From a bacterium (GTDB lineage: Bacteria; JACRDZ01; JAJRWM01): DNA of 27,017 nt. Below the pieces are notes generated by a model. It was not told where the DNA came from. It was given only the letters and a program-made list of their open reading frames with translations, and searched no databases. Position 1 is the stretch's first letter. The number at the start of each line of letters is the position of its first letter. Made by a program: the position numbers and the translations under genes. The DNA is taken from contig JAJRWM010000171.1 in assembly GCA_024276815.1 (NCBI GenBank), forward strand, positions 1-27,017. The letters run 5' to 3'. Shown here one piece after another: positions 2 through 12,279 of this stretch.

Positions 2-2164
2 GAACAGCAGGTGATTCTCAGGGAAATTGACATGAATATTGACGATCCCAATCGCTACATGTACCGGATTTTCTGGAATTCACTGTTCCAAACGCATCCC
101 TATCACTACCCGGTTATCGGCGAACGGGAATTATTCAGCGCTCTGACCGTGGAGGACGTCCGGGATTATTATCAATCTCGTTATGTGCCTAACAACATGA
201 TCCTGGTCGCGGTCGGCGATTTTGACACGGCGGCGGCGCTGGAAAAAATCAAAGCGGCCTTCGCTGATTTTAAACCAAAACCGCTGCCTTACGTTTATCT
301 GCCTGAAGAGCCGCGTCAAATTGCCCCGCGGAATTATGTGTTCGAGAAAGATGTCAAGGTCGCCCGGCTGAGCATTGGTTATCATACCGTTGATATCAGG
401 CATCCCGATCTATACGCTCTTGACGTGATGGCGATGATCCTGGGGCAGGGACGTTCATCCCGGCTTTACCGGAATATCAAGGACGAGGGGCTGGTTTACT
501 CAATTTCGTCCTGGTCGTATACTCCGGGTCAGCCCGGAGTCTTCGGTATCAGCGCTCAACTGGAAGAGGAAAATATTGAAAAGGTAAAATCAGCGATTTC
601 CAAAGAACTTAAACGCTTTCAAAGTGAATTGGTAAACGATGAGGAATTGGAACGGGCCAAGCAAAAAGTTATCAGTCAATATTATTTTTCCGGCCAGAGT
701 GTTCAGGGTAAAGCCCGGGAACTGGCCGGCGATTATTACCTGACCGGGGATCTTAACTTTTCCGGAACTTACGTGGAAGGCATTAAAAAAGTAACCGCCG
801 CGGAAATAGAACGAGTGGCGCGGCGCTATTTTTATCCGCAAAACCGGACTGTCGTCACCATGGTTCCCGTCAATACTCAGGAAGCCGACCAGGCGCAAGC
901 GGCCCCGGCGGCCGATTTTAATTTTCAGGACAGTTTCCGTAAATTCACCCTGAAAAATGGAATCACCTTGTTGGTCAAAGAGAATTTTAGCGCTCCTATC
1001 GTGTCGGTCCAGACCTTTTCACTGGGCGGAGTGCGCTTTGAAAAGGAATCGGAAAACGGGATCGCCAGCTTCATGCAGAGTATGCTGACGCGGGGCACTA
1101 AAAACCGGGACGCCGCCGCTATCGCTGAAGAACTGGAATCCATGGGAGCCTCCCTGGGCACGCATTCAGGTTATAACAGTTGCTATAATCAGTTAGCGGT
1201 TCTGAGTGATGATTTTGCTCACGGGGTGGAAATATTAGCCGATGTGGTCAAGAATCCCGACTTCCCCGAAGATGAAATCGAGAAGTTGCGAAAAGACGTC
1301 CTGGCCTCGATAAAACAGCAGGATGAAGAAATATTTTCCGTCGCTTCCAAGCTTTACCGGGAAACTTACTTTACCGATCATCCTTACAAAAACAGACCGC
1401 TTGGCAGTAAGGAAGCCGTCGAAAAAATTGACTCCCGGGCGTTGTTTGAGTTTTACCGGAAAATATATCAGCCACAGCGCTTGGTTATAGCTGTTGTTGG
1501 CGCTGTGAAGGCTGAACGGGCGAGGAAGGTGATCGGAGAATATTTTGAGGGCCTGGCGAAAGCGCCCCTGGTGGAAGTCGCCTGGAAAGATCAGGCCCCG
1601 CCGTCACAGGCCAGAGAAGCGGTAAAAATACTGCCCGGCAAAAAACAGGCTATCCTGATGCTGGGTTTCCCGGGTATCTCCCTTAAAAGTCAGGATATTT
1701 ACGCTTTCGAGGTAATGTCGGCGATTCTTTCCGGTCAGGGGAACCGGTTATTCCAGGAATTAAGGGATAAGCTGGGGCTGGCGTATTATGTCGGCACTTT
1801 TAACATTATCGGCTTGGAAGCCGGTTCTTATGTCTTCTACATCGGCGCCAAGCCGGAGAATATCGCTAAATCAGAAACGGCTTTCTGGAGTGAAATCGAG
1901 AGAATCAAAAAAGAGCCGGTAACGGCCGAGGAATTAAGTCGGGCCAAGAAAGCCCTGGTCGGCCAAAAGGAAATCAATTTACAGACTAACGGGTCGCAGG
2001 CGTTTAGCGCCGGTCTTGACGAATGCTATGGTTTAGGTTACGATAATCTTGATAAATACGCCGGGTCAATCGAAAAAGTGAGCGCCGCGGATATCCTGCG
2101 TATTGCCCGTAAATATTTCAGGAAAGAAAACAGCGTTAAAATAGTTGTTAAGCCACAGGAATAA
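2..2164 (+). CDS. M16 family zinc metallopeptidase, 5'-truncated
   Basis: This is the C-terminal part of a two-module insulinase/processing-protease (M16) peptidase. The reading frame is open to the window edge, and the first residues (EQQVILREI) match the segment that normally follows the HxxEH zinc site. The true start and the catalytic His/Glu residues therefore lie outside the window. The first module continues through a typical NMILVAVGDFD strand. A second M16 module starts near residue 315 (FTLKNGITLLVKEN) and has no HxxEH; the equivalent stretch reads IASFMQSMLTRGT. This is the usual inactive partner module that forms half of the substrate chamber. The family usually acts in the periplasm or envelope on peptides. 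The signal peptide cannot be checked because the N-terminus is missing. lysA follows after 16 bases and is probably co-transcribed. Confidence 0.9.
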   Translation, partial: EQQVILREIDMNIDDPNRYMYRIFWNSLFQTHPYHYPVIGERELFSALTVEDVRDYYQSRYVPNNMILVAVGDFDTAAALEKIKAAFADFKPKPLPYVYLPEEPRQIAPRNYVFEKDVKVARLSIGYHTVDIRHPDLYALDVMAMILGQGRSSRLYRNIKDEGLVYSISSWSYTPGQPGVFGISAQLEEENIEKVKSAISKELKRFQSELVNDEELERAKQKVISQYYFSGQSVQGKARELAGDYYLTGDLNFSGTYVEGIKKVTAAEIERVARRYFYPQNRTVVTMVPVNTQEADQAQAAPAADFNFQDSFRKFTLKNGITLLVKENFSAPIVSVQTFSLGGVRFEKESENGIASFMQSMLTRGTKNRDAAAIAEELESMGASLGTHSGYNSCYNQLAVLSDDFAHGVEILADVVKNPDFPEDEIEKLRKDVLASIKQQDEEIFSVASKLYRETYFTDHPYKNRPLGSKEAVEKIDSRALFEFYRKIYQPQRLVIAVVGAVKAERARKVIGEYFEGLAKAPLVEVAWKDQAPPSQAREAVKILPGKKQAILMLGFPGISLKSQDIYAFEVMSAILSGQGNRLFQELRDKLGLAYYVGTFNIIGLEAGSYVFYIGAKPENIAKSETAFWSEIERIKKEPVTAEELSRAKKALVGQKEINLQTNGSQAFSAGLDECYGLGYDNLDKYAGSIEKVSAADILRIARKYFRKENSVKIVVKPQE

Positions 2165-2180
2165 TTCAGGAGGCAAACGC

Positions 2181-3428
2181 TTGATATCAGAAGACGCCTT
2201 TCGCTATCATGATGGTGAACTGTTCGTTGAGGATGTCTCCTTGCGGAAGCTGGCCGAAGAGTTTGGCACGCCCTTGTATGTCTACAGTAAACGGACTATG
2301 GTCAGCGCGTTAGCGGCCTACCATGACGCTTTCCATAGGTTCAATCCCCTTATTTGTTACGCTGTGAAGGCCAATTCCAACCTGGAAATAATCAGGACGC
2401 TGGCTGAGCGTGGGGCCGGGGCTGATATTGTCTCGGGCGGAGAGTTGTTTCGGGCGATTAAGGCGAATGTTCCGTCCCAAAAGATAGTCTTCGCCGGCGT
2501 CGGCAAGACGAAAGAGGAAATTCGTTTCGCGCTCAACGAGAATATCCTGATGTTCAACGTGGAATCTGCTCCGGAACTGGAATTGATCTCGCGGGTCGCT
2601 AAAGAGGCGGGCAAGGTCGCTCCCATCGCTTTCCGGGTCAACCCCGACGTGGATCCTCTGACCCATCCCTATATCTCGACCGGACTGAAAAAGTACAAAT
2701 TTGGTATTCCTCTTGAAGACGCGCCTGAATTGTACCGCCGGGCGGCTCAGGACAGGCATGTCAAGGCGCTGGGGTTTCAGATGCACATTGGCTCCCAGTT
2801 AACGGATATCACGCCTTATCGTGACAGCCTGGTCAAAGCCGTTGATCTGATCAAGAAGCTCCGGCGGGAGGATATTGACCTCAGGTACCTGGATATCGGC
2901 GGTGGGCTGGGTATCAGGTATAACGATGAGGAGGTGCCCACGCAAGGAGAGATGGCGGAGCTTCTGGAACCTCTTTTGCTGGAGAGCCGCTGTCAATTGA
3001 TTCTTGAGCCGGGGCGTTCTATTGTCGGCAACGCCGGGGTTTTGCTGACCGAAACGCTTTATCATAAACAAACCGCGGAAAAAAGTTTTCTGATTGTTGA
3101 CGCGGCGATGAACGATTTGGCCCGTCCTTCTTTGTACGGAGCCTATCACTACATGCTGCCGGTCAGGCAGACTTCGGCTGAGGTGCGGGTTTTTGATGTG
3201 GTTGGCCCGATTTGCGAGTCGGGTGATTTTTTGGCCAAGGATCGTGAATTACCCTTGATGGACTCGGGAGATCTGCTCGCTGTGCTGGGAGCCGGCGCTT
3301 ATGGTTTCACCATGTCCTCGAATTATAATTCAAGGCGCCGGGCGGCTGAGGTTTTAGTGGATTCGACGCGTTATAGTTTGATTCGGAAACGGGAAACCTA
3401 TGATGAGCTGATCCAGGGTGAACTTTAG
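2181..3428 (+). CDS. lysA: Diaminopimelate decarboxylase
   Basis: Fold-type III PLP enzyme that decarboxylates meso-diaminopimelate to L-lysine, the last step of lysine synthesis. The protein has 415 residues, normal for LysA. YAVKAN carries the PLP-binding lysine (about Lys63), HIGSQ and DIGGGLG lie in the barrel, and EPGRSIVGNAG is the phosphate-binding loop. CESGD holds the catalytic cysteine of the C-terminal domain, and GAYGFTMSSNYN is the characteristic C-terminal signature. I chose the TTG at 2181 because CAGGAGG ends 7 bases upstream. An in-frame TTG at 2145 would overlap the peptidase gene and add 12 residues not typical of the family. A stretch of about 420 bases without a gene follows. 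Confidence 0.95.
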   Translation: MISEDAFRYHDGELFVEDVSLRKLAEEFGTPLYVYSKRTMVSALAAYHDAFHRFNPLICYAVKANSNLEIIRTLAERGAGADIVSGGELFRAIKANVPSQKIVFAGVGKTKEEIRFALNENILMFNVESAPELELISRVAKEAGKVAPIAFRVNPDVDPLTHPYISTGLKKYKFGIPLEDAPELYRRAAQDRHVKALGFQMHIGSQLTDITPYRDSLVKAVDLIKKLRREDIDLRYLDIGGGLGIRYNDEEVPTQGEMAELLEPLLLESRCQLILEPGRSIVGNAGVLLTETLYHKQTAEKSFLIVDAAMNDLARPSLYGAYHYMLPVRQTSAEVRVFDVVGPICESGDFLAKDRELPLMDSGDLLAVLGAGAYGFTMSSNYNSRRRAAEVLVDSTRYSLIRKRETYDELIQGEL

Positions 3429-3596
3429 CGGTCGCACGGAATATTGGCCGGTTGCGGGGTGTGAGGTTCGTCATGTTGTCTGATTTTGATAATTCAGGGA
3501 ACCCAAATAGTTGGAACCTGTTCTAATTGTTTGGAGTTGTTTAAAATTGATAAAGGTTGGCAGTATCTGATTGACGTCAGGTGATAAACGGCCTGG
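3429..3596 (+). other. Non-coding stretch after lysA
   Basis: I see no convincing ORF, RNA gene or terminator hairpin here. A small TGACGTCA palindrome sits at about 3573-3580. The segment is bounded on its right by the first copy of dispersed repeat family 1. Confidence 0.4.
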
Positions 3597-3757
3597 TCGC
3601 AAAACTAAAGCGTTTTACGACCAATCATACTGTCTGTCATTCCCGCGTTCGCGGGAATGACCAAGGCTGAAAAGCATTGTACCTTTGATCGTGATTTGCT
3701 TTAGAAAACACTATTAGTTTTGATATTTCAACAGATTGATCAAAGAAGCGAATAGCC
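3597..3757 (+). repeat. Dispersed palindromic repeat family 1, copy 1
   Basis: This 161-base segment is repeated in the same orientation at 10269-10459 with only scattered substitutions outside the core. Imperfect inverted arms are visible: AAAACTAAAGCGTTTT at 3601-3616 matches the reverse complement of 3705-3721 with one extra base and one substitution. The middle (3635-3661) holds a hairpin with 11-base arms, TCATTCCCGCG and its complement. This core is about 30 bases shorter than in copy 2. The unit has a MITE-like architecture with no coding capacity. It ends 94 bases before the HU gene. Confidence 0.85.
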
Positions 3758-3778
3758 TTGGGGAAACGGCTTGTTTCC

Positions 3779-3807
3779 TTGTAAATCGTTTTTCATTAAG
3801 TTAAAAT
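3779..3807 (+). promoter_or_regulatory. Predicted sigma70 promoter of the HU gene
   Basis: TTGTAA (3779-3784) and TAAAAT (3802-3807) are separated by exactly 17 bases, placing a transcription start near 3814, about 38 bases upstream of the GTG start. It lies just downstream of repeat copy 1. It is predicted from sequence only. Confidence 0.55.
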
Positions 3808-3851
3808 GGACCAGTATTGCTTGTTAAAATAAAAAAAGGGGGGGTATTAGA

Positions 3852-4118
3852 GTGACGAAAGTTGATCTGGTGAAGAAAGTCGCGGACTCAATCGGAGTGC
3901 GTAAAAGCGATGCCAAGGTTGTGGTTGACATTGTTTTTGACACTGTCGCCAAAGCTCTTGCCCAGGATGAACATGTGGAACTTCGCGGGTTTGGCAGCTT
4001 TGACGTACGCCGCCGCGGTTCCTGGAGCGGCCGCAATCCGCAAACGGGCGAGAAAGTCCAGGTGCCGGCGAAAAAGATTCCTTATTACAAGCCCGGAAAA
4101 GATATGAAAAGGATCTGA
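3852..4118 (+). CDS. hup: HU/IHF-family nucleoid DNA-binding protein
   Basis: An 88-residue protein of standard HU length that bends and compacts DNA in the nucleoid as a dimer. The N-terminal helices (TKVDLVKKVADSIGVRKSDA) precede the signature GFGSF at about residues 46-50. The beta-arm motif GRNPQTGEKVQVPA, with the DNA-intercalating proline in RNP, follows. The C-terminus KKIPYYKPGKDMK is typical. The start is GTG at 3852, preceded by a run of seven Gs (3838-3844) that serves as ribosome binding site. The sequence does not distinguish HU from an IHF-like paralogue. The gene has its own promoter and is followed 14 bases later by a lipoprotein gene. Confidence 0.93.
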   Translation: MTKVDLVKKVADSIGVRKSDAKVVVDIVFDTVAKALAQDEHVELRGFGSFDVRRRGSWSGRNPQTGEKVQVPAKKIPYYKPGKDMKRI

Positions 4119-4132
4119 GTCCGGAGTGAATA

Positions 4133-4939
4133 TTGGTGTTAAATAAGAAATTTGCGCTATTTCTTTGTCTGGCCGCCGCGTTGTTTTTATCCGCCTGTGC
4201 CGCTACGCCCAAAAAGGTTAGCCGGGAGATGGTGAAAAGCGATCTGGTTGTTCCGGCGGATGCGGAAGAAAAGCAGGGATTGGCTCGTAATTACTATGAG
4301 GAGGGGATGACTCTCTATCATTCCGGCAAACTGGTCGAAGCGGAAGGGCTTCTTGAGAAATCGTTGGAACTGGATGATTCCCGGGCGCGGGTGCATAACA
4401 ATTTGGGCGTGATATACCAGGCCCGGAAGGCCTATCAGGATGCCGAAAGGTCTTTTCGGCTGGCGCTTGAAATTGAGCCGGAATACCGGTCCGCCAGGTT
4501 TAACCTGGGGATCGCTCTGTTGCGTCAGGATAATTACCGGGAAGCGCTTAAAATATTTAAGGGGCTTGACGAGGCTAAAGCGAAGTTGGAAGGCCTCAAT
4601 ATGTATATTGGTTTATGTTATTATGGTTTAAAAAAGCCGGGGATGGCGATTAAGTACCTGAACAAGGCTCTGGCCGACTCGCCCGATAACGCGAAGATCG
4701 CTTACTGTATCGGGATCAGCGACTACCGGTTGCGGGCTTATGTCGCGGCTGAAGATAATTTGAGAAAGGCTGTTGAACTGGACCCGGACTTGGCTTGCGC
4801 TTACTTTTATCTGGCGACCATCAAGCAGACTCAGGATGAATATACGACCGCCGCCGGGTACTGGAAGAAGTTTCTGGAATTTCCCGTTTCTCCTCAATGG
4901 CAAAAAATCGCTCAGGCCAATTTAAATAAATTCAAATAA
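4133..4939 (+). CDS. TPR-repeat lipoprotein
   Basis: A 268-residue predicted lipoprotein. After a short basic N-terminus and hydrophobic segment, LSAC (residues 19-22) forms a lipobox with Cys22 as the lipidation site. The mature part is almost entirely tetratricopeptide repeats. About six can be counted from residue 48 to the C-terminus, for example ARVHNNLGVIYQARKAYQDA and CAYFYLATIKQTQDEYTTAA. It is similar in design to PilF/PilW and to generic outer-membrane TPR lipoproteins, which scaffold protein complexes, but I cannot name the partner. The start is TTG 4133 or GTG 4136, both served by GGAG at 4123-4126. Lipidation implies an envelope location. It follows the HU gene closely and may share its transcript. 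Confidence 0.85.
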   Translation: MVLNKKFALFLCLAAALFLSACAATPKKVSREMVKSDLVVPADAEEKQGLARNYYEEGMTLYHSGKLVEAEGLLEKSLELDDSRARVHNNLGVIYQARKAYQDAERSFRLALEIEPEYRSARFNLGIALLRQDNYREALKIFKGLDEAKAKLEGLNMYIGLCYYGLKKPGMAIKYLNKALADSPDNAKIAYCIGISDYRLRAYVAAEDNLRKAVELDPDLACAYFYLATIKQTQDEYTTAAGYWKKFLEFPVSPQWQKIAQANLNKFK

Positions 4940-4975
4940 ATCCGCTCTGCCAGAGAACTATTTAGACAGGATCGT

Positions 4976-5362
4976 ATGAGTTTTTGCACCGTTATCAATT
5001 GTCTTGACGGCCGTGTTCAACTGCCGGTAATAAGCTATTTGAAGAAACGCTTTGGCGTTAATTACGTCGATTCGGTCACGGAGGCGGGTCCTAACCATAT
5101 CCTGGCTGACGGAACTTGCCGCGAGCGAATTGAAGCGATCCTGGAACGGTTGGACATTTCTATTACTAACCACAATTCAGTTGGTATCGCGGTTGTTGGT
5201 CATTATGACTGTGCCGGCAACCCGGCCTCCGGGGAAGAGCAAAGAGTTCACACTTTAGAAGCGGTCCGATTTTTAAAAAGTCGATATAAAGACTTTGAGG
5301 TTATCGGTCTCTGGGTTGATGAAACCTGGCAGGTAAACGAACTATCCCTTGCGGTCGATTAA
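4976..5362 (+). CDS. Small beta-carbonic-anhydrase-like protein
   Basis: A 128-residue protein with the residues expected of a beta-class carbonic anhydrase zinc site. CLDGR supplies Cys9, Asp11 and Arg13, and GHYDCAGN supplies His76 and Cys79. It is much shorter than ordinary beta-carbonic anhydrases of about 200 residues. It resembles short 'carbonic anhydrase' family proteins seen in anaerobes, whose activity I do not know to be established. The first strand begins directly at CTVINC, so there is no signal peptide and the protein is predicted to be cytoplasmic. The start is ATG 4976, with only a weak AGACAGG at 4964-4970. The gene lies 36 bases after the lipoprotein gene and before a gene-free, repeat-bearing stretch. 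CO2 hydration is an inference from the zinc motif. Confidence 0.75.
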   Translation: MSFCTVINCLDGRVQLPVISYLKKRFGVNYVDSVTEAGPNHILADGTCRERIEAILERLDISITNHNSVGIAVVGHYDCAGNPASGEEQRVHTLEAVRFLKSRYKDFEVIGLWVDETWQVNELSLAVD

Positions 5363-5594
5363 GGCGTTTTACGAAGCAGCGTAAGTCGAACGATTTTAAA
5401 GAAGAGCTCTCTTTGATAAACGCCGTCTTCGATTTCTCTCCCAAGCTTTAGTGCGTTTTACAAACAGATGGGAATTCCTTGGGCGATCAGGTCAACTAAA
5501 GTTTTTGCGAGGGGAGGGGAGTGGTTTTTGTCTAATGTTGGCGTGGAGGAGAAGGTAATTTTGAAGTATGTCCGTTGGCAGGGGAGCCAGGACT
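5363..5594 (+). other. Non-coding stretch before uvrC, first part
   Basis: I find no ORF or RNA gene that looks real. Two short segments (about 5364-5375 and 5448-5465) contain GCGTTTTAC, recalling the left arm of repeat family 1, and may be decayed fragments. GGCGTTT (5363-5369) and AAACGCC (5418-5424) are inverted to each other. None is strong enough for a functional call. Confidence 0.35.
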
Positions 5595-5639
5595 CAGGTC
5601 AAGCTTCGCTTGACCTGTGAAGTGCCCCGGGCATGCCCG
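5595..5639 (+). repeat. Pair of perfect palindromes
   Basis: CAGGTCAAGC (5595-5604) pairs perfectly with GCTTGACCTG (5608-5617) across a TTC loop. Directly downstream is the perfect 12-base palindrome CGGGCATGCCCG (5628-5639). No T tract follows, so this is not a standard intrinsic terminator. It looks like another repetitive extragenic palindrome, but only one copy is in this window. Confidence 0.6.
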
Positions 5640-5698
5640 TATCTACAAATAACTCCCCCCAAGGTTCCCTTGGTTTGGACCGTAAAATGTTCTAACAG

Positions 5699-5821: not shown

Positions 5822-5842
5822 TCTAACAGTTGAGTGAAAAAA

Positions 5843-7630
5843 ATGTCTGATTTACTGATCCAAAAAAGATTAAGTCTGCCGAACCAGCCCGGCGTCTATC
5901 TGATGAAGAACGCGGTGGGCGAAATTATCTATGTCGGCAAGGCCAAATCGATCAAGAAGCGGGTCAGTTCATATTTCCGCGTTACTTCCCGGGAAGCGAA
6001 AACCCTTTCCTTGATGGAAAATCTGGTTGATCTGGACTACATCATTACCGGCAACGAACTGGAAGCGTTGATCCTGGAATGTAACCTGATCAAGAAACAC
6101 CGTCCCTTTTATAATATTGAGCTTAAAGACAACCAGCGTTATCCATATATCAAAATAACCGTTTTTGACAAATTCCCCAGGATGTTCTCCACCCGCAACC
6201 TGGATAAGGACGGCTCCTTGTATTTTGGTCCCTATCCTGATGCCGGCGCGGTTAAGCGCGTCCTGGAAACGATTCGTAAACTCTTTCGTATGCGTAGCTG
6301 CCGCCAACGTATCAGACGTAAACAAGCCTGTCTTAATTTTCATATTAAACGCTGCTGGGCGCCTTGCGAGGGTCGGATTACCGCCGAGGGATACCGGGAA
6401 ATAGTGGACGAGGTGGTCCTCTTTTTAAAAGGCCGTAATGATTTTCTGCTGAAAAAATTGAAAACGCAGATGAAGACGGCCGCCCGAAATATGGATTTCG
6501 AGAAAGCCATCATTATCAGGGAGCAGATAGCGTCGCTGGAAAAGATCTCCAGCCGGCAGATTGTCATGGAACTCAGGAACCAGAACGAGGATGTCATCGC
6601 TCTGACCAATGACCTGGACCGCTACTGTGTGGTATTGTTGATGATACGAAACGGGCAGATCCTGGGGGAAAAGCACTTTTTTCTCAAGCCCCTGGTGAAT
6701 GATGAAAAAGAAATCTTGAGTGAATTCATCAAACGCTATTATTTCGATTCGGATTTTATCCCCGGAATGTTGCGGGTATCAGTTTTACCTCAAGAAGTTG
6801 AGCTGCTGGAAGACTGGCTGACCGGCCGGAAAGGTCAGTTGGTTAAAATTCATCAACCGCGAAGAGGCCGCAAGCTTTCCCTGTTGAAAATGGCGGAGAA
6901 TAACGCCCGGCAGTTTTTGACCGAGCCTCGGCCGGCGGCTGAAACCGACCTGAACCGGGTGTTGTCAAAGTTGCAGGCCGGACTGGGGCTGAAAAATTTC
7001 CCCCGCCTGATTGTCGGACTGGATATTTCCAATACCGGCGGCTGCCAGGCGGTTGGTTCCCTGGTTGCTTTTGAAATGGGGCGAAAAACCCCGAAACTGT
7101 ACCGGCGGTTCAGGATCAGGTCGGTAACGGGCATTGATGACTACTCAATGATGCGGGAAGTCGTCTCTCGCTATCTCAAACGGGTGGGAGATGGGAGCGA
7201 ACCGCGGCCGGATTTGATGTTGATCGATGGCGGCAAGGGGCATCTGGGCGTGGCATTTTCCGCTTTACAAGGGGCCGGCTTTAATGATATTGATATAATC
7301 AGTTTAGCTAAAAAAGAGGAAGAAATATTTATCACCGGCAGTAGTGAACCGGTTGAGTGGTCGAAAAACGCTCCGCAAAATCAGTTGCTGATGCGGGTAC
7401 GGGACGAGGCTCATCGTTTCGCCGTAACTTTTCACCGCCAGCGCCGGGCCGGAACATTAAGAACTTCAGCTTTGGATAATATCCCTGGGATAGGGGAGTC
7501 GCGCAAAAAAGAGCTGCTTAAGCGTTTTGGCTCTATCACTAAAATAAAAGAAGCCACGGCGGCGGAGATCGCCGGGGTAAAAGGCGTTGGCCCGAAGCGG
7601 GCGGCTTTGATCAAAGAGAAATTACGATAG
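5843..7630 (+). CDS. uvrC: UvrABC excinuclease subunit C
   Basis: UvrC makes the dual incisions around bulky DNA lesions in nucleotide excision repair, recruited by UvrB. Domains in order: the N-terminal GIY-YIG nuclease (PGVYLMKN then IIYVGKAKSIKKRV, about residues 15-90), a cysteine cluster near 150-175, the UvrB-interacting UVR motif (MDFEKAIIIREQI, about 215-245), the RNase H-like nuclease (IVGLDISNTGG and LMLIDGGKGHL, with DEAHRFAV), and C-terminal helix-hairpin-helix motifs (IPGIGESRKKELLKRFGS, VKGVGPKRAALI). The length of about 595 residues is normal. I prefer ATG 5843. An in-frame GTG at 5834 would add three residues, and neither has a strong ribosome binding site. It leads a cluster with the bactofilin-cmk fusion, plsC and ispH. 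Repeat copy A occupies its immediate upstream region. Confidence 0.96.
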   Translation: MSDLLIQKRLSLPNQPGVYLMKNAVGEIIYVGKAKSIKKRVSSYFRVTSREAKTLSLMENLVDLDYIITGNELEALILECNLIKKHRPFYNIELKDNQRYPYIKITVFDKFPRMFSTRNLDKDGSLYFGPYPDAGAVKRVLETIRKLFRMRSCRQRIRRKQACLNFHIKRCWAPCEGRITAEGYREIVDEVVLFLKGRNDFLLKKLKTQMKTAARNMDFEKAIIIREQIASLEKISSRQIVMELRNQNEDVIALTNDLDRYCVVLLMIRNGQILGEKHFFLKPLVNDEKEILSEFIKRYYFDSDFIPGMLRVSVLPQEVELLEDWLTGRKGQLVKIHQPRRGRKLSLLKMAENNARQFLTEPRPAAETDLNRVLSKLQAGLGLKNFPRLIVGLDISNTGGCQAVGSLVAFEMGRKTPKLYRRFRIRSVTGIDDYSMMREVVSRYLKRVGDGSEPRPDLMLIDGGKGHLGVAFSALQGAGFNDIDIISLAKKEEEIFITGSSEPVEWSKNAPQNQLLMRVRDEAHRFAVTFHRQRRAGTLRTSALDNIPGIGESRKKELLKRFGSITKIKEATAAEIAGVKGVGPKRAALIKEKLR

Positions 7631-7688
7631 CGGTGCGGAGAAGACTTCTATTATGAAAAGTGAATTTGGCTTGGAGGAGAACGAAGGT

Positions 7689-8753
7689 ATGGATGAGTGC
7701 TTGATTCCAAAATCGGCTGTATTCGAAGGTAATCTTAACGCGGAGGGAAAAGTCATCATCAACGGCCGTTTTGTCGGGGGTAAAGTGACTGTCAACGGGC
7801 AGGTCTATGTGGGTACGGAAGCCCTGGTGACCGGCGAGATCGAAGCGAACGAGGTAATTGTCGGCGGTCGTTTCGAGGGTAACGTGATCGCTCTCGACCG
7901 GCTGGAAATTGAATCGGCGGGCAAGCTCTTTGGCGAGATCCAGGCCAAGAGACTGTTAATTAATGATGGAGCGGAGTTCGAGGGGACTTGCCGCATGACT
8001 GGCGGGGAAGCAAAGCCCGCCGCCCAGAAAACAAGCGCTCAGCCGGTGACAAAACAACCGCCGGCGTCTGAACCAGTGGCTGAATCGAAAAGAATTACCG
8101 TGACGATTGACGGACCGGCCGGGGCCGGCAAGACCACGATCGCCCGGCGTCTGGCCAGCGAACTCAACTATACCTATCTGGATACCGGCGCCATGTATCG
8201 GGCTTTGACCTGGAAGGCTCTCAAGAACAAGCTGGACCTCAAGGATGAGAACGCTCTGGTTGAGATGGCCGCCGGCACGGAGCTTAAAATAATCTCCCAA
8301 AAGGACTACACCCAGGTGCTGGTGGACGGCCGGGATGTCTCGGAGGAGATCCGCAAGCCTTATGTTTCCAGAGGGACCTCGGCTATCGCCGATGTTAAGG
8401 GGGTCAGGGAGATTATGGTGTGGTTGCAGAGAAAATCAGCCAACGGCCGGGGCGTTGTTCTCGAGGGACGTGATACCGGCACGGTTGTTTTCCCGGACGC
8501 GGAAAAGAAATTTTACCTGGACGCCTCACTGGAGGAGCGGGCTTTACGCCGGGCCAACGAACTGGAGAAGAAAGGCGTCAACCTTGATCTCGACCAGGTT
8601 ATGGATGATATCAGGAAACGGGATGAAAGAGACCGCTCCCGTCCTTACGGGGCCTTGAAAAAGGCGGAGGGCGCTATTATCATTGATACCACCAAGATGA
8701 ACATTGACGATGTCACCAAAGTCGCCTTGAGACATATTGGCCTGAATAATTAG
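7689..8753 (+). CDS. cmk: Bactofilin-cytidylate kinase fusion protein
   Basis: One uninterrupted frame encodes two proteins that are normally separate. Residues about 6-103 are a bactofilin (polymer-forming cytoskeletal) beta-helix domain with repeating hydrophobic/glycine rungs such as GKVIINGRF, ANEVIVGGRFEGNV and GAEFEGTCRM. Residues 104-135 are a linker rich in Ala, Pro, Gln and Lys. Residues 136-354 are a complete cytidylate kinase, which converts CMP/dCMP to CDP/dCDP. It has the P-loop GPAGAGKT (142-149), LDTGAMYRA, EGRDTGTVVFPDA and the RDERDRSR lid region. I chose ATG 7689 because GGAGGAG (7673-7679) is 9 bases upstream. ATG 7653, with GGAG 12 bases upstream, would add 12 residues. 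Gene order uvrC-cmk-plsC-ispH matches the usual cmk neighbourhood. The kinase domain looks intact, so essential activity is expected. Polymerisation of the fusion is an inference. Confidence 0.92.
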   Translation: MDECLIPKSAVFEGNLNAEGKVIINGRFVGGKVTVNGQVYVGTEALVTGEIEANEVIVGGRFEGNVIALDRLEIESAGKLFGEIQAKRLLINDGAEFEGTCRMTGGEAKPAAQKTSAQPVTKQPPASEPVAESKRITVTIDGPAGAGKTTIARRLASELNYTYLDTGAMYRALTWKALKNKLDLKDENALVEMAAGTELKIISQKDYTQVLVDGRDVSEEIRKPYVSRGTSAIADVKGVREIMVWLQRKSANGRGVVLEGRDTGTVVFPDAEKKFYLDASLEERALRRANELEKKGVNLDLDQVMDDIRKRDERDRSRPYGALKKAEGAIIIDTTKMNIDDVTKVALRHIGLNN

Positions 8754-8764
8754 CCAAGGCCTTT

Positions 8765-9385
8765 ATGTTGATCCGTCTGATTAGATTTGTTCTCCATGTG
8801 TTTTGCAGACTGTGGTTTCGTATCCAGGCGGTTGATCTGGAAAACGTGCCTGTGAATGGTCCGTTGCTGATTGTCAGTAACCATGCCAGCAATCTGGACC
8901 CGGTACTGCTGTCGGTTCTTTTATACCTGAGAAGACCGGTGCATTATCTGGCCAAGCAGGAGCTGTTTAACCGGTTTACCACTCCTTTTCTGAAATATTT
9001 CCTGACTCATCCGGTGAAACGGGGGCGTCTGGACCGCAAAGCGATTAGGACGGTCATGACGCTTTTGGGGGAACAGAACGCCGTGGTTGTGTTTCCTGAG
9101 GGAACTCGTACTCACGACGGTAATTTGCGGCCTGGGAAAGCCGGGGTGGGATTTTTGATTTACCAGGCGAAAGTTCCGGTTTTGCCGGTTTATATTGATA
9201 ATTCGTTCCGGGCCCTTGGCCGAGGTAAAATAATTCCCCGTTTCTGTAAGGTGAAAGTTGTTTTTGGCCAGCCTCAAAGCTGGCCTGAGCTGTGGCGGGA
9301 ACCGTCAGGCAAGGAAATTTATCAGAAGCTTAGCGAGCGCAGTATGGAGGAGATCCGGAAATTAAAGAGAGCGATGAGCGTTTAA
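8765..9385 (+). CDS. plsC: 1-acyl-sn-glycerol-3-phosphate acyltransferase
   Basis: A PlsC-type acyltransferase of 206 residues that places the second acyl chain on lysophosphatidic acid to make phosphatidic acid for membrane lipids. The catalytic HX4D motif is NHASNLD (residues 39-45) and the glycerol-phosphate-binding motif is FPEGTR (110-115). An N-terminal hydrophobic stretch (LIRLIRFVLHVFCRLWF) fits monotopic inner-membrane attachment. It starts 11 bases after the cmk fusion. Its 3' end overlaps the apparent start of ispH by 25 bases. The final codons, GCG ATG AGC GTT TAA, lie exactly where a single extra T would fuse PlsC in frame to IspH. The boundary should therefore be checked. Confidence 0.92.
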   Translation: MLIRLIRFVLHVFCRLWFRIQAVDLENVPVNGPLLIVSNHASNLDPVLLSVLLYLRRPVHYLAKQELFNRFTTPFLKYFLTHPVKRGRLDRKAIRTVMTLLGEQNAVVVFPEGTRTHDGNLRPGKAGVGFLIYQAKVPVLPVYIDNSFRALGRGKIIPRFCKVKVVFGQPQSWPELWREPSGKEIYQKLSERSMEEIRKLKRAMSV

Positions 9386-10236
9386 ACATCATCAGCGCGG
9401 ATTACGCCGGTTTCTGCTTTGGGGTAAAGAGGGCGATCCAACTGGCGACCCAGACTGTCGAAAAAACCGCCCAGGGCGTAGTCTACAGCATCGGGCCGTT
9501 AATCCACAATCCTCAGGAAGTCGTCAGGCTGTCGCATAAAGGGGTGCGGATCATCGAGTCGCCCGATGAAGTCAAAGAGGGAACCGTGATTATCCGTTCC
9601 CACGGGATTGCCCCGGCCTTCATGGATAAACTGGTGGCTAAGGGGCTGAAAATTGTCGACGCGACCTGTCCTTTTGTTAAAAATGCCCGTAACATTGCCT
9701 TGATGCTGGAGGAGAAGGGGTTTGTCCTGGTGATTATTGGCGAGCCTAATCACCCGGAGATTTGCAGCCTGGTAGATTCCTTGAAAGGCAAAAGCTGGGT
9801 TATCAATCATCTCAATGAAATTGAGTCGATTCCCAAGCAGGAAAAGATCGGCGTTATCGCCCAGACCACCCAGTATTTATCCCGTTTCCGCGACGCGATC
9901 GACCATCTGTTGCCCCGGGCGCGGGAACTGGCTGTTTACAACACTATCTGCGACGCGACCACCAGGCGCCAGGACGCGACCCGTAATTTAGCCGCCAATG
10001 TCGATTTGATGTTTGTGGTGGGTGGCAAGAACAGCGCTAACACGGCTCGTCTATATGAGATAAGTCAGGAATGCGGCGTCGAGTCATATTTTATCGAGAC
10101 GGCCGAAGAGATCAGGACGGAATGGCTCAAGAACAAGAAGAACATCGGGATAACCGCCGGCGCTTCGACTCCTGACTGGATTATTGATCTGGTCTACCGA
10201 AGAATACAGGAACTTTCCGATAAATTAATTCTCTGA
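9361..10236 (+). CDS. ispH: 4-hydroxy-3-methylbut-2-enyl diphosphate reductase, apparent AUU start
   Basis: IspH is the [4Fe-4S] enzyme that makes IPP and DMAPP in the last step of the MEP isoprenoid pathway. The three cluster cysteines are in GFCFGV (Cys19), DATCPF (Cys103) and NTICDATTRRQ (Cys197), and the substrate His residues are in LIHN and EPNHPE. The conserved N-terminus begins at about 9391, yet no ATG, GTG or TTG exists in frame between the stop at 9331 and GTG 9544. Starting at 9544 would delete the first iron ligand. ATT at 9361 has the strong site GGAGGAG (9346-9352) 8 bases upstream and gives 291 residues, a normal length. Alternatives are a PlsC-IspH fusion by frameshift or a one-base sequence error at 9381-9385. 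Confidence 0.85.
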   Translation: MKESDERLNIISADYAGFCFGVKRAIQLATQTVEKTAQGVVYSIGPLIHNPQEVVRLSHKGVRIIESPDEVKEGTVIIRSHGIAPAFMDKLVAKGLKIVDATCPFVKNARNIALMLEEKGFVLVIIGEPNHPEICSLVDSLKGKSWVINHLNEIESIPKQEKIGVIAQTTQYLSRFRDAIDHLLPRARELAVYNTICDATTRRQDATRNLAANVDLMFVVGGKNSANTARLYEISQECGVESYFIETAEEIRTEWLKNKKNIGITAGASTPDWIIDLVYRRIQELSDKLIL

Positions 10237-10533: not shown

Positions 10534-11091
10534 GTGGAAACGGAAACTGGGAATGAATTGAGCGGAAAAGAAATCGTTACGGATGAAGAACCTTCAATGG
10601 AAGAGCTCCTGGCTGATTTTGAAAAACTAAGTGAAGGGCAGATCGTTAGCGGTCAGGTTATCAGGGTTGGCTCTGATGAAGTTGTTCTTGATATAGGTTA
10701 CAAGTCGGAGGGTGTAGTCTCCTTGAGGGAGTTTGAGGGCCTGGGCGGCAATCTGAATGTCAAGGTTGGCGACGAGGTTGATGTCATGATCAAGAAGATC
10801 AACGGTCCCGATGGTCTGGTGGTGTTGTCCAAAAGAAAGGCTGACCAGAATCGCGGCTGGGCGCGTTTAAAGGACGCCGCTCAGGAGGACCAGGTGGTCC
10901 GGGGTAAGATTGCCCGGGAAGTCAAAGGCGGCTATCTGGTTGATCTGGATGGGGCCGGCGCTTTTTTGCCGTCTTCCCAGGTATCGGTGGTTCGCCGGCC
11001 TAAAAACGCGCAGATGATCGGCGAGGTGAGGGATTTTAAAATTATCAAGCTGGACAAAAGAGACATTGTTGTTTCGCATCGTGTGCTTTAA
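10534..11091 (+). CDS. rpsA: Ribosomal protein S1, N-terminal part (interrupted)
   Basis: S1 binds mRNA and helps load it on the 30S subunit. This 185-residue piece holds the first two S1/OB domains, about residues 35-101 and 118-183, which anchor S1 to the ribosome. It ends at TAA 11089-11091, directly after DIVVSHRVL. In S1 proteins this position is followed by a Leu/Glu-rich linker (SRRVLLEEEREK type). The downstream bases continue in the same frame as EVEREKMRKD, so the stop replaces what is probably a leucine codon; TTA to TAA is a single change. The start is GTG 10534 with AGGGAG 7 bases upstream. It is either a sequence error, a true nonsense or split gene, or stop readthrough. Confidence 0.85.
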   Translation: METETGNELSGKEIVTDEEPSMEELLADFEKLSEGQIVSGQVIRVGSDEVVLDIGYKSEGVVSLREFEGLGGNLNVKVGDEVDVMIKKINGPDGLVVLSKRKADQNRGWARLKDAAQEDQVVRGKIAREVKGGYLVDLDGAGAFLPSSQVSVVRRPKNAQMIGEVRDFKIIKLDKRDIVVSHRVL

Positions 11092-11109
11092 GAAGTTGAG
11101 CGTGAGAAA

Positions 11110-12279
11110 ATGCGGAAGGATTTGCTTGATTCTCTCGAGGTAGGCCAGTTGGTTGAAGGTAGCGTAAAGAGCCTGACCACTTTTGGCGCTTTTATCGATT
11201 TAGGCGGGATCGACGGTCTTTTGCATATCAAGGATATGAGCTGGGGGCGGATTAAGCATCCTTCAGAAAAAGTAAAGATAGGGGAGGTCGTTAAGGCCAA
11301 GGTTGTCAATTTTGATCCTGAGAACGGTCGGATTTCCCTGAGCCTGAAAATGTTGCAGCCTGATCCCTGGGAAAAAGTTTCTTTCCGCTATCCGGTGGGT
11401 GAAAAAGTCAAGGGCAAGGTGGTAAGCCTCACGAAATACGGCGCTTTTGTGGAGTTGGAAGAAGGCGTTGAGGGATTGATTCATGTCAGCGAGATGTCTT
11501 GGACGAAGAGAATTAACCGTCCCGCTGATATCTTGAAGACCAACCAGGAAGTGGAAGCGGTGATTCTGGATGTCAAGCAGGTTGAGCGCAAAATATCTTT
11601 GGGATTGAAGCAAATCACGGCTGATCCCTGGCAGGAGTTGGCCAAGCGCGTTCAGGTTGGCTCGAAGATCAGGGGGCGGGTTTGTAACCTGACCAATTTC
11701 GGGGCTTTTGTGGAAATTGAGCCGGGTATTGACGGGCTGATTCATGTCAATGATTTATCCTGGGATGAAAAATCCAAAAATCCTTCGGATATCCTTCAGG
11801 TTAACGATGAAGTTGAGGCCGTTGTAATCAGCTTCGACGCCGAGAAAAGAAAAATAGCCTTGGGACTGAAGCAGTTGAGCGACGATCCCTGGAAGCAGTT
11901 GCAGCGGAAATATTCGGTTGGGAAAACCATTCCGGTCAAGGTTGTCAGTATTGTGGATTTCGGTGTTTTTGTGGAGATTGAGCCTGATGTCGAGGGCTTT
12001 GTGCATATTTCCCAACTGGATGTCAAGAAAGTCAACGATCCCCGGGAGGTTGTCAAGGAAGGCGATGAATTGACCGCTTCGGTAATCAAGTTTGATCTGA
12101 AAAACCACAAGATCAACCTCAGCGTCAGGGATTATCAGTCGCGTCAGGAGAAAAAGGATATCAGTAAATATCTCAAGGATAACAGCGGGTTTTTCTCGCT
12201 CCTTGGCGAGGCCACCGATAACGCCTTGCAGAATCACTCTCTGGTAGTGAACGGTGAGCGGAAAAAGAACGAGGAGTAG
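11110..12279 (+). CDS. rpsA: Ribosomal protein S1, C-terminal part (interrupted)
   Basis: In-frame continuation of the upstream S1 segment. It carries four more S1 domains, each with the FGAF/YGAF/FGVF core: VEGSVKSLTTFGAFIDLGG, VKGKVVSLTKYGAFVELE, IRGRVCNLTNFGAFVEIE and VKVVSIVDFGVFVEIE. With the two upstream domains this makes a full six-domain S1. The frame actually reads on from 11092; ATG 11110 is the first possible start after the TAA. It has only weak GAG-rich sequence in front, so independent translation would depend on reinitiation from the upstream ORF 18 bases away. The last three or four domains are the mRNA-binding part in the family. The sequence after about residue 360 is low in conservation. 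Confidence 0.88.
   Translation: MRKDLLDSLEVGQLVEGSVKSLTTFGAFIDLGGIDGLLHIKDMSWGRIKHPSEKVKIGEVVKAKVVNFDPENGRISLSLKMLQPDPWEKVSFRYPVGEKVKGKVVSLTKYGAFVELEEGVEGLIHVSEMSWTKRINRPADILKTNQEVEAVILDVKQVERKISLGLKQITADPWQELAKRVQVGSKIRGRVCNLTNFGAFVEIEPGIDGLIHVNDLSWDEKSKNPSDILQVNDEVEAVVISFDAEKRKIALGLKQLSDDPWKQLQRKYSVGKTIPVKVVSIVDFGVFVEIEPDVEGFVHISQLDVKKVNDPREVVKEGDELTASVIKFDLKNHKINLSVRDYQSRQEKKDISKYLKDNSGFFSLLGEATDNALQNHSLVVNGERKKNEE

Follow-up and report, generated by a model that had tools for sequence, protein, structure and literature searches.

A putative stop-loss fusion of a bactofilin and a cytidylate kinase in a draft bacterial genome

Bactofilins, which polymerise independently of nucleotides, are scaffolds that recruit separate client proteins, among them PbpC, M23 peptidases and, through PadC, ParA. 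In the window analyzed here (the whole stretch of DNA, 27,017 nt, from an uncultured bacterium), one reading frame appears to join a bactofilin covalently to cytidylate kinase (CMK), which converts CMP to CDP, an essential step feeding RNA, DNA and CDP-linked lipid precursors. This raises the question of whether the frame encodes a true fusion protein and, if so, what the bactofilin part would do for the kinase. An enzyme covalently joined to a bactofilin would be nature's own test of how the cytoskeleton can scaffold enzymes; if the fusion is accidental, it would still be a clear case of stop-loss fusion, with the unfused pair surviving in a relative.

One reading frame with two complete domains

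The features of the window that bear on this question are as follows.

5834-7630, + strand: uvrC, the upstream neighbour (Pfam)
7689-8753, + strand: bactofilin-cytidylate kinase fusion gene, 354 aa; a longer form is possible from ATG 7653
7701-7991, + strand: bactofilin (PF04519) beta-helix domain, residues 5-101 (Pfam, AlphaFold2, structure match)
7995-7997, + strand: ATG codon 103, preceded by a Shine-Dalgarno-like AGGGG; possible internal start for a free CMK form
8004-8087, + strand: linker, residues 106-133, rich in Ala, Pro, Gln, Lys and Ser (predicted disordered, pLDDT below 50)
8076-8078, + strand: GTG codon 130, at the alignment position of the ATG that starts the separate cmk of G002 (VAESKRITVTIDG / MNSRKKLIVAIDG); no Shine-Dalgarno sequence
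8100-8735, + strand: cytidylate kinase domain (PF02224 / TIGR00017), residues 138-349 (Pfam, NCBIfam)
8765-9385, + strand: plsC-like acyltransferase (Pfam)
9361-10236, + strand: ispH (LytB), start codon uncertain
10534-12279, + strand: rpsA (ribosomal protein S1), broken by the in-frame TAA codon 11089-11091

Translation of the fusion frame runs without interruption from either of two ATG codons, at 7653 (22 bp from the end of uvrC) and at 7689, to the TAG at 8751-8753. The Shine-Dalgarno sequence at ATG 7689, GGAGGAG, is the stronger (-9.3 kcal/mol, compared with -6.6 at ATG 7653 and a random mean of -3.4), so the start at 7689 given in the first-pass annotation is reasonable. That annotation had also described a complete bactofilin and a complete CMK, each with its signatures, in one frame with a linker between them, and our analysis bears this out. 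The Pfam bactofilin profile matches residues 5-101 over positions 2-97 of 98 (E 9.7e-24; 83.9 bits, cut-off 27.9), and the Pfam cytidylate kinase profile matches residues 138-349 over positions 1-208 of 211 (E 1.2e-71; 241 bits, cut-off 26). The equivalog-level NCBIfam model TIGR00017 (cmk) matches at full length with 249 bits (cut-off 135.55). Since both domains match at full length, we ruled out a chance open frame.

AlphaFold2 (mean pLDDT 85) modeled residues 3-103 of the 354-aa product as a beta-helix, 106-133 as disordered and 137-350 as a CMK fold, with pLDDT values of about 80-93 for the bactofilin block, about 81-98 for CMK and below 50 for the linker. The input alignment contained homologues for the CMK half alone, and the bactofilin domain still folded well. 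By VIA-align, the predicted N-terminal fold matches the Thermus bactofilin filament 6RIB (Z 19.0, rmsd 1.2 over 100 residues) and Caulobacter BacA 2N3D (Z 16.9), and the predicted CMK fold matches E. coli CMP kinase 2CMK (Z 30.6); sequence searches of the PDB agree for both halves.

The CMP- and ATP-contact residues of the E. coli enzyme, which we take to be K18, S36, R41, S101, R110, R131, D132, R157, R181, D185 and R188, provide a check on the active site. The fusion has the P-loop GPAGAGKT and keeps the P-loop residue K148 as well as R171, S231, R240, R261, D262, R287, R311, D315 and R318; all of the contact positions are identical except for that of S36, where it has Thr, like the majority of the aligned relatives. 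From these positions and the modeled fold, the product would be expected to act as a normal CMP/dCMP kinase, and it is the sole CMK in the metagenome-assembled genome (MAG; 2.39 Mb, 246 contigs, 91% complete, two bactofilins).

The gene lies in the usual cmk neighbourhood, as first described, with plsC, ispH and rpsA downstream; uvrC is upstream, and all are on the + strand. For ispH, no ATG, GTG or TTG start lies ahead of the conserved N-terminus (9361-9400), and translation may begin from a rare codon, for example ATT 9361, in which case ispH overlaps the end of plsC.

The linker and the reality of the join

The 32 in-frame codons of the linker region are free of stops, and 30 of the 32 encoded residues are disorder-promoting. 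Windows that were both stop-free and equally disorder-promoting made up 1% of the linker's own dinucleotide shuffles and were absent from 2,890 intergenic and 11,104 off-frame gene windows, which makes it unlikely that the linker is untranslated DNA. Its other two forward frames contain two stops each, and its GC content is 59%, compared with 45% for intergenic DNA. The linker scores low for codon usage (-1.9, with in-frame genes at 8.2 +/- 3.4 and off-frame sequence at about -5 to -6 +/- 4.7), and therefore the codon-usage test is not decisive by itself. Moreover, a similar composition could be found in the translated tail of a bactofilin. With this likeness and the low codon score taken into account, the case that the linker makes for a real join is strong, not final.

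The join is known from one draft MAG, and rpsA of the same contig carries an in-frame TAA (11089-11091) where relatives read Glu (compared with G003). The TAA, which splits the gene at a point between the second and third S1 domains, is probably a base or consensus error, a nonsense mutation or a strain variant. The single draft source and this probable error leave a small chance that a stop codon between the two halves was misread. Twelve linker codons are one substitution away from a stop, including GAA 128 just ahead of GTG 130. After any stop in the linker, the only in-frame starts for cmk up to the CMK domain would be the GTGs at 8046, 8076 and 8100, none of which has a Shine-Dalgarno sequence; that of plsC is also weak. 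By our judgement, which is not a computed value, the bactofilin-CMK join is very probably a real fusion.

Relatives, rarity and origin

We compared three other genomes of the phylum (G001, G002 and G003). By near-full-length 16S, the organism is at most 84% identical to everything compared and 82% identical to G001 of the same phylum, a comparison that identified no sister phylum. In G001 and G003, cmk precedes plsC and has no bactofilin. In G002, which belongs to another family, a bactofilin ending in TAA is followed after 14 bp by the cmk start and then by plsC, as separate ORFs in the same order as in the window; its bactofilin and cmk are 32% and 46% identical to the respective halves of the fusion. 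Separate ORFs in close relatives had been named beforehand as evidence against the fusion. Such ORFs do exist, though only in a distant relative from a different family, and they explain how the fusion may have arisen instead of speaking against it: the unfused pair of G002 makes loss of a stop codon between an existing neighbouring bactofilin and cmk the likely origin, as judged by sequence comparison. In the simplest history, a second bactofilin would have been placed before cmk, and the intervening stop would then have been lost in the lineage of the window. GTG codon 130 may be a relic of the old cmk start. The bactofilins of the window and of the G002 pair share a one-residue insertion that is absent in the other aligned rows, and in the best tree these two cmk-linked bactofilins group together, though weakly supported (69/87).

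The sole cmk of G002 (L113, G002:C53, 1260-1340, - strand) lacks the LID half: its reading frame is lost beyond VVFPE, with the C-terminal piece, KIDTTVLSPDEVVDKM, following in another frame. From the sequence, the break appears to be a deletion or an assembly fault.

The first-pass annotation knew of no described protein of this kind, and the searches agree: among about 800 genomes and 80 further cmk loci, no second bactofilin-CMK fusion was found. None was present in 41 genomes; none among the matches listed (to about E 1e-47) in 386 genomes of widely spread families; none among the matches listed (E 1e-58 or better, a level at which diverged fusions with split alignments could escape) in about 437 additional genomes spanning five phyla; and none in viral contigs. 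At 80 cmk loci of GTDB contigs, flanks of up to 5 kb contained no bactofilin, and the literature searched contained no paper pairing 'bactofilin' with 'cytidylate kinase'.

Several candidates from these searches were rejected. The long CMK frames L024, L025, L030, L035, L099 and L148 have an extra N-terminal frame without a family match, and in L155 and L160 the extra N-terminal part overlaps, by eye, an upstream gene in another frame. The alignment of G218 starting from query residue 66, considered as an adjacent bactofilin, has no bactofilin profile match, and the upstream frames resemble other genes; the alignments of G197, G071 and G246 were rejected on the same grounds.

Other CMK fusions were observed in distant genomes.

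L018, 1483-2823: CMK-acyltransferase (PlsC-like) fusion
L129, 1489-2772: CMK-acyltransferase (PlsC-like) fusion
L144, 28-2169: EPSP synthase-CMK (AroA-CMK) fusion

Curated families add PanC-CMK (PRK13477), AroA-CMK (PRK11860) and CMK-Der (PRK09518). Only the CMK part of our protein matches these three models, far below the curated cut-offs, and their partner domains PanC, AroA and Der are absent from it. They and the CMK-PlsC proteins share with the window the in-frame joining of CMK, often to an operon neighbour; their partners are enzymes or a GTPase, whereas in the window CMK is joined to a cytoskeletal protein that forms polymers. CMK fusion is thus a known kind of event, and the cytoskeletal partner is new relative to the literature searched.

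Filament tether or passenger

The fused bactofilin has diverged strongly, with at most 39% identity to any other bactofilin compared, and nevertheless retains the core glycines, the full profile match and the polymerisation phenylalanine. This residue, F97, aligns with F105 of the Thermus bactofilin TtBac and F130 of Caulobacter BacA (phmmer alignments to 6RIA and 2N3D). F130R abolishes polymerisation of Caulobacter BacA, and F105R, the mutant of entry 6RIA, blocks that of the Thermus protein (PMC12448750, PMC10945521). Filament formation by the fused domain is therefore plausible from its sequence.

Bactofilins bind the membrane through a hydrophobic and basic N-terminal peptide, MFSKQAKS in Caulobacter BacA (PMC12448750). 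Such an amphipathic peptide is absent here, where the N-terminus reads MKSEFGLEENEG (MKSEFGLEENEGMDECLIPKS) or MDECLIPKS; the separate G002 bactofilin, by contrast, begins with MALFNNKK, which resembles a membrane-targeting peptide. This peptide is common in bactofilins and neither universal nor strictly defining. Without it, filaments of the fusion would probably not be membrane-bound by themselves, and the earlier suggestion that the kinase is localised near the membrane beside PlsC is not supported. Co-polymerisation with the canonical bactofilin of the genome could, as a matter of speculation, bring the kinase to the envelope. That second bactofilin lies on another contig, C242, in the order gidA-rsmG-parA-parB-M23 peptidase-bactofilin, and a related locus is found in G001.

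G000:C242 (L118), 1165-5658: canonical bactofilin locus, rsmG-parA-parB-M23 peptidase-bactofilin
G001:C60 (L116), 4298-5640: M23 peptidase-bactofilin end of the canonical bactofilin locus

Loci of this M23-linked type have been described (PMC10945521), and its presence on C242 marks the fused bactofilin as an extra, non-canonical copy.

On balance, we lean with moderate confidence towards a true stop-loss fusion of a non-canonical bactofilin and cmk, in which CMK subunits would be strung on bactofilin polymers through a flexible linker of about 30 residues, a reading based on sequence and predicted structure. The kinase would hang from the filament much as mVenus does in BacA-mVenus, which carries the fluorescent protein at its C-terminus and still polymerises and functions (PMC12448750, PMC12364344), indicating that bactofilins tolerate a C-terminal globular cargo. 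Tethering of CMK to the polymer would concentrate the enzyme in, or scaffold it by, cytoplasmic filaments. The further proposal, that the only CMP kinase of the cell forms part of the bactofilin filament itself, so that an essential step of nucleotide metabolism is built into the cytoskeleton and can be positioned or regulated by polymer assembly, is tentative and in our view rather doubtful.

The chief rival is a real but accidental, nearly neutral fusion, in which CMK would work freely at the end of a tether and the bactofilin would be a passenger with no role in filaments. We consider this unlikely, although several observations fit it: CMK is often joined to operon neighbours, as in the distant and curated fusions above; the usual bactofilin role could be filled by the canonical copy in the gidA-rsmG-parA-parB-M23 locus; and with no second example found, there is no sign of long retention. 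However, the retention of the full profile, core glycines and polymerisation phenylalanine through such divergence suggests selection on the bactofilin domain, and the make-up of the linker is that of a selected flexible linker. A sequence or consensus error, in which a stop was misread and the genes are in truth separate as in the G002 pair, appears improbable. The rpsA nonsense codon shows that base errors or strain mixtures exist in the contig, and the linker codons close to stops offer places for one; but the error would have to fall precisely on a single stop codon between genes that already share a frame, it would leave cmk with the GTG starts lacking Shine-Dalgarno sequences (a point softened by the weak signal of plsC), and the composition and GC content of the linker are unlike those of intergenic DNA, though a bactofilin tail could look alike.

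Slightly more improbable still is a dual product, in which free CMK is made besides the fusion, by internal initiation at ATG 7995 or by cleavage of the linker, so that CMK is tethered only in part. The AGGGG ahead of ATG 7995 is well spaced (-7.8 kcal/mol, equalled by about 5% of random sites), and the linker is long and exposed in the AlphaFold2 model. On the other hand, three of five other bactofilins of the phylum have Met at this position and the AGGGG bases encode the conserved FEG, so that the signal can be due to chance.

Under the preferred reading, a fusion with the kinase strung on bactofilin polymers, the protein combines features of two known systems. With bacterial CMP/dCMP kinase (Cmk; TIGR00017, E. 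coli 1CKE/2CMK) it shares the full domain, the active-site positions, the fold and the cmk-plsC-ispH-rpsA context, and it differs in having an N-terminal bactofilin where Cmk starts at the P-loop strand. With Caulobacter BacA and Thermus TtBac it shares the complete beta-helix, the polymerisation phenylalanine and the 6RIB-like fold; unlike them, it has no membrane-targeting peptide, its tail runs into an enzyme, and it is encoded in a cmk operon and not beside an M23 peptidase. CTP synthase (CtpS) forms filaments by its own fold. As there, a CTP-supply step would sit in a polymer, but here a separate cytoskeletal domain would do the polymerising.
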